From assembly GCA_028829895.1 (NCBI GenBank), contig CM054178.1, forward strand, positions 24,748,701 to 24,812,700: 64,000 bases of DNA, read 5' to 3'. The notes under the pieces were generated by a model. It was not told the DNA's origin. It was given only the letters and a program-made list of their open reading frames with translations, and did not search any database. Both the position numbers and the translations under genes were made by a program. The DNA is from Sinotaia quadrata. Taxonomy: Eukaryota; Mollusca; Gastropoda; Architaenioglossa; Viviparidae. Below, in pieces: positions 39,401-42,400 of the stretch (position 1 is the stretch's first letter; every line of letters starts with the position of its first letter).

Positions 39401-42400
39401 ATGCCTCTTCAAAGTACATGTACAGAGTTAAGAGCATTATAATTGGCTCAATTTGCAATTGTTTTGTCGACCATACCTAAACTTTATACAGTATAAGTGT
39501 TCAGTACATTCTACCTGTACCTGCCACTTTGTAAACACAGCTTAATAATGATCACTATTGTTTTGAAAAACATCCTATCACTATCTAAACAGACTTAACA
39601 GACAATTTTTCTTCAGATTTGCCACACATCTCTTCAAAGTATATGTACAGGTAAAGTGTAATATTCTTTGAAGCTGTTTCTTTGAACAATTAAAAAAATG
39701 TAGATAGAGTTGACTGAGACCAAAGCTGTTGAGAGAAAAGCCGGGCCAGTAGACAAACTTCTGGCCACAGTAATATTCATTGAAGCTGTTTCTTTGAATA
39801 ATTAAAAATGTGGTTAGAGTTTACTGTGACCAAGGTTGTCAAGAGAAAATCAAGATAATTTCTCCCCACCCTCATCCCCCCTCTTGACTTAGCTAAGGAG
39901 AAAAACCTAGGCAGAAATATGTTCTAAATAAACCCAGTAGGTAACAAGGAGCAAAATCACCAAAATCTCAGGTTGGAAGAGAGTTAAAGCATTTGGAAAT
40001 TTCAGCTTGCAGGGATATTATTTTCAAACCATGATCAAGTTAGATTTAAACATAGATATATATCTACATGTACTAAATTACTGGAAACATTAAGGCTATA
40101 CTTACCAAATGTGAATCAGGGTCAAGCTAGGTTTGATATATTTCTGCATGTACTAAATTACTGGATTTCAATTTAAGTGAATCACTCAGATTATACTTAC
40201 CAAATCTGAATCATGGTCAAGCCAGGCTTGATATACTTCTGCATGTACTAAATTACTGGATTTCAATTTGTGAATCACTCAGATTATACTTACCAAATCT
40301 GAATCATGGTCAAGCCAGGCTTGATATACTTCTGCATGTACTAAATTACTGGATTTCAATTTGTGAATCACTCAGATTATACTTACCAAATCTGAATCAT
40401 GGTCAAGCCAGGCTTGATATACTTCTGCATGTACTTTCGTGTCTAAAAAGAAAATGAATAGGATTTTCAGTCTATCAAATATCCAGACTAAGTTCAGATA
40501 TAAACTTATAATCAATCAGAAGTGATCTCTGATATAAAATCCTAATCAAATAGAAATTATTTCTCATGCAAAATCATAATCAATCAGAAATGATCTTTGA
40601 TGTAAAATCATAAATCAGAAAAATGTTGTAGGAAGACAGTTAAATAGATGTGCACAAAGCAAATAATACTAATGCTGAATCATTCTTTGTCATTTGTGAA
40701 TGATGACCAAAAAGGCTATGTATGAACTCTAATTGTAAATGTTAACCCGATCGCTGTCTTTTAGACAATGTACATCTCAACCGGAAGTGCGTGCGCCTGT
40801 GACGCTGTGATGCAACATGTCTCCGCATGTACAGACGTGCTTGTAAAGTGAAACCATTCATTAAAACAATAACCAATCAGTAAAAAGGAAAGATATGCTT
40901 GGCTTCAGCAACAATCTGCTCTAAATTTTACCATTGGATAACTCTTATTAGAAAGGTCATGAGGGTGAAAAAGCGCGAAAAATGGGTCTACCCCCTCTGT
41001 TGAGCAGCCATTTTGAACCGAGATTTTTATCAGGCATGACAAGTTTTTATGCCGATTTTGATTTGTTTGGTGGATCCTAACTAATAAACTTTATTGTGTG
41101 ATTAAGAGGACTTTAATATCGATGGAATTCAACCAACCCCTACTGAAATTTTGGATGTGACCATGTGATAATAAAAAAAACCCCGGTCGTCATCAAAAAA
41201 AAAACAACAAAAAACTGGTCGTCATCAAAGCATGCATGGATTTCATGTGACACTTTCGTTCTGTTAAAAAGCATGAAAGTTTTAAAAGAAACAGTGAACA
41301 TTTGCACAAGAACAGTGTTTATTATTATAACAACAATAAAAATTTTTAGGACTTTATTCCAGGAAACAACTGACGAAGATCAACACAAGAAAAAGGTAAG
41401 AAAACCTTTTATTTATTTTTGAATACATTTATTTTATTTATTTTTGAATAAAATAAAATAAAATGAATACTTAAAAATGCCCCCCATAATGCTTATTTTG
41501 AAAATCTTTTAGAATTATACGAATTATACTTGCTTTAGTAGACTAGTAAGAAAAAAAAACGGTGAAACGTTCGGAAGTTCAACAAAAAGAAATCTTTTTA
41601 TTATTTCTTTGTTTGTGATTTCGAAATAAATTAAAAATAATACTTTTAAGATTCCTTAGTATGTCTATAATAGGTAGTAATTTAATTTTTTTAAATCCAT
41701 TGATAATTACAGTCACTTTAAATTTTTTTGTAGACTTGTTTAAAAAAAAAAAAAAATCCCGAAATTCACGAGTGCAAGAAAACTTTTTATTATTTCTTTG
41801 TTTTTGAATTCGAAATAAATTAAAAATAATAATTTAAAAATTCCATAATATGTCTATTAATTATTATAGGCAGTAATTTAAATTTTTAAAATCCACTGAG
41901 AATTAGTTGCTTTTAATTTTTTAGTAGACATGTTATAGAAAAAAAAACGATGCCGAAATTCACAAGTTCAAGAAAAAGATAAGAAAACTTTTTATTATTT
42001 GAATTTGAAATAAATTAAAAATAATACTTTTAAAATTCCTTAGTATGTCTATAATAGGTAGTAATTTAAATTTTTGAAATCCATTGATAATTACAGTCGC
42101 TCTTCATTTTTTAGTAAACTGATCCATTCAATTATATATCGGTAAACGTCAAAATAGCCTGAAATGGTGGTGTCAGATTACGCATTTTCGCCTGACAGCC
42201 AACAGGTTAAATTTTATATTTCCCTGAGAAATATATAAAATGCATTTTACAAATGTAAATCATTCTAAAGAATCTGTGCAAAAGAAAACCTCAGATGATA
42301 TTAAACTTTAGCCAGGAAAGTACATCTAAACATTCTGAAACATTCATGCACTGACACACCACAAGAACATGTATTCCATTTAGTCAATGTGGGTTTTCTA

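Follow-up and report, generated by a model that had tools for sequence, protein, structure and literature searches.

Where tandem repeats lie across exon-intron boundaries, they can give rise to novel introns and so to new patterns of splicing (PMC2812944). De Grassi and Ciccarelli (2009, PMC2812944) described minisatellite-like repeats that straddle such a boundary and copy splice-site sequence. Work on intron gain by tandem duplication (a 2016 study, PMC4974935; Lehmann et al. 2010, PMC2891723) indicates that a duplication carrying splice signals could make the sequence between its copies an intron. Tandem exon copies within one gene are also known from mutually exclusive exons (Dscam, PMC1397879; a human survey, PMC5740500). 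Likewise, poison or decoy exons (PMC8819188) are intronic exon-like stretches that end the frame if included.

The METAP2 gene of the snail Sinotaia quadrata carries arrays of a known kind, that of boundary tandem repeats and intron gain by tandem duplication (PMC2812944, PMC4974935, PMC2891723). There are differences. The boundary repeats of PMC2812944 occur in paralogues from human segmental duplications, where altered splicing is associated with them, whereas the snail gene is apparently single copy. The duplications of PMC4974935 and PMC2891723 made novel introns in coding sequence; in METAP2, the original intron is merely lengthened. In contrast to Dscam-type exons (PMC1397879, PMC5740500), the exon ends alone were copied, without the original acceptor. 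The poison exons of PMC8819188 are conserved and were observed in RNA. The METAP2 copies are described here from the DNA of one assembly. Duplicates of a canonical exon fall outside the definition of pathogenic pseudoexons in PMC8819188, so the term pseudo-exon, applied to the copies by the first-pass annotation, is loosely used here. Our literature search found general precedents only, and no work on METAP2 alternative splicing in molluscs.

The window analysed is a stretch of 64000 bases. METAP2 occupies its minus strand from 53077 to 33480, with 11 coding exons that give a protein of 443 amino acids and one terminal stop. The identity claimed for the gene is borne out by this intact model and by its top PDB match, methionine aminopeptidase 2 (1b6a, E 6.4e-216, query 38-443), a homology to the catalytic domain of a solved METAP2. 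Proteins of the snails Batillaria, Pomacea, Babylonia and Littorina are among the nearest named ones in the best 120 of 6599 matches, and none of these 120 is a near-identical full-length protein. The host exon of the first array had been correctly recognized. However, it had been numbered exon 6 and is coding exon 5 in the 11-exon model; an untranslated 5' exon could be the source of this gap. At the N-terminus, a segment between two lysine runs, present in most aligned relatives, is missing from the model. It is also missing in Pomacea (P0002), and no exon for it was found in intron 1 (47975-52915) by tblastn with four relatives.

The 26 contigs of the assembly add up to 984 Mb, and eight have lengths of 54 to 156 Mb. 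The METAP2 protein has nine matches in it, all within the METAP2 locus, so the gene is apparently single copy. The DNA of the first array has one match, which is the array itself. Both searches score the best candidates only, which leaves the absence of further copies unproven. A paralogue, a retrocopy or a second haplotype was considered as the source of the copies, and these matches revealed none.

Table 1. Exons, exon-end copies and acceptor arrays in the window.
Feature	Position	Strand	Size and identity	Splice sites	Basis
METAP2 coding exon 5, head of array 1	40387..40442	-	56 nt		tblastn with relatives and gene model
Array 1 copy c1	40294..40340	-	47 nt, 47/47 identical to exon end	donor GTAAGTATAA	
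Array 1 copy c2	40201..40247	-	47 nt, 47/47 identical to exon end	donor GTAAGTATAA	
Array 1 copy c3	40106..40152	-	47 nt, 42/47 identical (5 substitutions)	donor GTAAGTATAG	
Array 1 copy c4	~40027..40072	-	decayed, 7-nt insertion	without donor at matching place	
METAP2 coding exon 6, head of array 2	38698..38879	-	182 nt		tblastn with relatives and gene model
Array 2 copy cA	38580..38630	-	51 nt, 48/51 identical	acceptor CAACAG, donor GTAAGC	
Array 2 copy cB	38454..38501	-	48 nt, 43/48 aligned bases identical	acceptor CATCTCAG, donor GTAAAG	
Acceptor array, helicase-like exon	1476-1705	+	three TTTTATTGTTGACAG copies	acceptors at 1526, 1624, 1689	
Acceptor array, another exon	15016-15168	-	two identical 74-nt units, each CTTTTTCTCTCTAG + first 7 nt of exon		

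Array 1 stands behind coding exon 5 (Table 1). The three 47-nt copies of the exon's 3' end, their common orientation, the AATTTAG acceptor and the spacers of 46 to 48 nt are all as first described. The spacers measure 46, 46 and 48 nt and are identical save an extra TT in the last. Tandem Repeats Finder (TRF) reports one repeat at 40097-40435 with a period of 93, 3.6 copies, a match of 97% and a score of 625. Its units, each with 47 bases of exon and 46-48 of spacer, run head to tail, as in a minisatellite or local tandem repeat across an exon-intron boundary. The more decayed c4 has a local score of 31, which none of 2000 mononucleotide shuffles reached, nor any of the 417 other windows taken from the locus. 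Chance similarity is ruled out by this score, by the TRF score and match and by the identity of the copies. Divergence grows farther from exon 5, a pattern that may be read as in a repeat refreshed at the exon end and decaying at the far end. The array had been called nascent. This fits the identical c1 and c2, but c3 and the further decayed c4 mean that it is not wholly new. Likewise, the single donor given for all copies holds for c1 and c2 and not for c3. On the plus strand, an open frame of 106 codons (40137-40457) runs antisense to the array and shows no sign of being a gene; its 31-residue repeats reflect a unit length of 93 nt, which is divisible by three. An Rfam scan of 38000-43000 gave no family match at the gathering score.

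The copies had been described as splice-competent, which is right for their donors; their acceptors are of background quality. The donors of c1-c3 equal that of exon 5 across 11 positions, with the consensus at 9 of them, and belong to the top two of the ten METAP2 donors. The acceptors have 7 pyrimidines in 16 positions and a score of -3.3, a value reached by 46% of the 903 intronic AGs. For the ten real METAP2 acceptors, scores run from -0.8 to 6.3. These ten sites, each scored with itself left out, are the basis of the acceptor model, which is coarse because of their small number. In 20000 simulated exon-end duplications of METAP2, 58% yielded an acceptor no worse than that of array 1 within 12 nt of the junction. 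The frame arithmetic agrees with what had been proposed: a copy used in place of exon 5 would remove Thr-Arg-Lys in frame, and one added after it would bring a TGA after ten codons. The predicted products with c1 alone, c2 and c3, or all three added stop after 171 residues, and use of a downstream array 1 donor would give a stop after 162. The premature stop that inclusion of a poison exon causes is thus predicted for array 1 and not for array 2.

Array 2 lies directly after the next METAP2 exon, at 38757-38445, and is absent from the first-pass annotation. Copy cB is shorter by a net 3 nt, which keeps the frame. In the model translation, the frame stays open without a stop when cA, cB or both are added after exon 6. 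With scores of 2.2 and 2.1, the acceptors fall inside the span of the real METAP2 sites and in the top 7% of the 903 intronic AGs. The donors are weaker, with the consensus at 6 of 11 positions in cA and 4 of 11 in cB. An acceptor matching those of array 2 was produced by 11% of the 20000 simulated duplications, and 3.5% were also in frame without a stop. Array 2 looks a stronger candidate for real use than array 1, though splicing of its copies seems unlikely.

We estimated how common such arrays are, counting as local tandem duplication any of 40 nt or more at an offset of 25-600. They cover 5470 of the 64000 bases of the window (8.5%) and 9.7% of the METAP2 locus. At 16 sites of 10 kb elsewhere in the genome, with the array itself excluded, they cover 27000 of 160000 bases (16.9%), with a median of 11.6% and a range of 0 to 42%. 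Two of the 20 METAP2 splice sites fall inside arrays. When the pattern is shifted, 1.73 are expected over the whole window and 1.96 over the locus; the probability of two or more is 0.49 and 0.55, respectively, in a test that covers these 20 METAP2 sites alone.

Two further exons in the window carry duplicated acceptors, as acceptor-side versions of the METAP2 arrays (Table 1). In both, the last copy is the one adjoining an open frame. That of the plus-strand array adjoins an exon with DNYRSHPS, a motif from which we take the gene to be probably a MOV10-like helicase. Pfam, run on two forward frames of 1-15001, matched AAA_12 once. The exon of the minus-strand array reads AYEEEVRTREGG in the last copy. 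The helicase-like gene also shows, by eye, a longer direct repeat on the plus strand (2644-2990 and 3492-3850, about 848 bases apart); TRF gives a further hint of it in the equal rows that start at 2665 and at 3513. Farther along the same strand, open frames at 24242-28300 contain a stretch rich in proline and terminate in the acidic DEDWE; we presume a likeness to WASH complex subunit 1.

Substitutions were compared between copied exon and spacer. In c3, they affect 5 of 47 exon bases and 5 of 22 spacer bases (p 0.27). In array 2, the exon values are 3 of 48 and 3 of 51 against 8 of 66 for the spacer (p 0.35 and 0.34). The copied exon is less changed in every comparison and never significantly so, and these tests have little power. 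Neither array thus gives a significant signal of constraint on the copied exon. Among the young units of array 1, spacer and copied exon show the same degree of identity, which points to youth rather than selection on exons.

Three protein searches listed 228 METAP2 relatives, and none of them carries a predicted insertion or deletion; isoforms confined to Sinotaia quadrata would escape this check of listed relatives. With the region containing cA, 747 of 761 candidates were under E 0.001, and the best 120 were listed. With the region in which c1 replaces exon 5, 34 of 46 were under the threshold. One KIDFG-like motif is present in 225 of the 228, and none in the other 3. The HRQ-KPG spacing is nine residues in 198 and 16 in one, and the pattern is unmatched in 29. 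The spacing of 16, in P0188, comes from a pattern starting at an earlier HRQ; the true one is nine. An IIDCAF repeat in two fish proteins (P0005 and P0121) concerns a different stretch.

Could array 1 work as a switch? As a poison exon or alternative donor, it would yield truncated METAP2 and direct the mRNA to nonsense-mediated decay (NMD), tuning the level of the enzyme. The strong donors of c1-c3 and the early stops predicted with c1 or a downstream donor speak for such a switch, but the acceptors are at background level and the spacers of the young units match as well as the exon they separate. In addition, splicing between neighbours requires an intron of 46 nt whose G+C content, counted by hand, is about 28%. 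In PMC4463651, the shortest spliced human introns mentioned have 43, 49 and 56 nt, and those of 43 and 49 nt are G-rich, with a G-rich enhancer. This objection is not absolute, since jumping one copy gives a longer intron. We regard the switch as highly improbable. Optional use of the array 2 copies is very unlikely too. METAP2 isoforms would then be longer by 17, 16 or 33 residues, a repeat of a strand that presumably bears a metal ligand. The good acceptors and the frame kept with either or both copies argue for it. However, the insertion would fall inside the catalytic core, the donors are poor, the low-power comparison found no significant constraint, and no relative listed has the repeat.

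In a combined reading, the repeats would bring a splicing module to METAP2, with strong truncating decoy donors in array 1 and two in-frame mini-exons repeating a catalytic strand in array 2. The arrays of adjacent introns would then act oppositely, and minisatellite turnover would supply the exons. We give it hardly any credence. An error of the assembler, which might have multiplied identical 93-nt units, is extremely improbable. The identity of the c1 and c2 units would fit such an error, but the spacer before c3, c3 itself and c4 have differences of their own. Moreover, the contigs of the assembly reach chromosome size and the array is some 0.4 kb long, a length that a single long read would presumably cross. 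At most, the artefact could put the exact copy number of array 1 in doubt.

The explanation in which we have considerable confidence is that ordinary minisatellite turnover caught the ends of METAP2 exons, leaving copies that are probably neutral. Local duplication of short stretches in tandem, the minisatellite-making type common throughout the genome, would twice have taken the 3' end of an exon with the start of its intron. The intact exon would remain first with the acceptor it already had, which lets correct splicing go on, and the surplus copies would drift within the intron. Their number would turn over: the identity of exon 5, c1 and c2 suggests recent amplification or conversion, and c3 and then c4 would be progressively older. 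At most, the repeated donors may give low-level mis-splicing that ends at a stop. From the anatomy of the arrays, the copies and their frames, the splice-site scores and the repeat density, all directly observed, we infer that the copies are neutral and rarely or never spliced in. They probably resemble ordinary neutral repeats more than working spare exons. The strong donors of c1-c3 and the in-frame array 2 copies with acceptors in the real range count against this neutral reading, as does the lower, though not significantly lower, share of substitutions in copied exon than in spacer. Nevertheless, arrays are dense in this genome, and there is no need to invoke a splicing switch. The first-pass annotation had offered an alternative-splicing or NMD switch and, as a hedge, a neutral decoy array. 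Background acceptors and the density of arrays leave the switch unsupported, with no sign of it found; the hedge seems to have been right.

If the copies were used, minisatellite turnover would have given birth to exons in an enzyme gene that is widely conserved and apparently single copy. On the present evidence, METAP2 of Sinotaia quadrata clearly illustrates how splice-site copies come to be scattered near intact exons in a genome rich in tandem duplication. Intronic copies of exon ends are to be expected in such genomes, and they may mislead gene finders.
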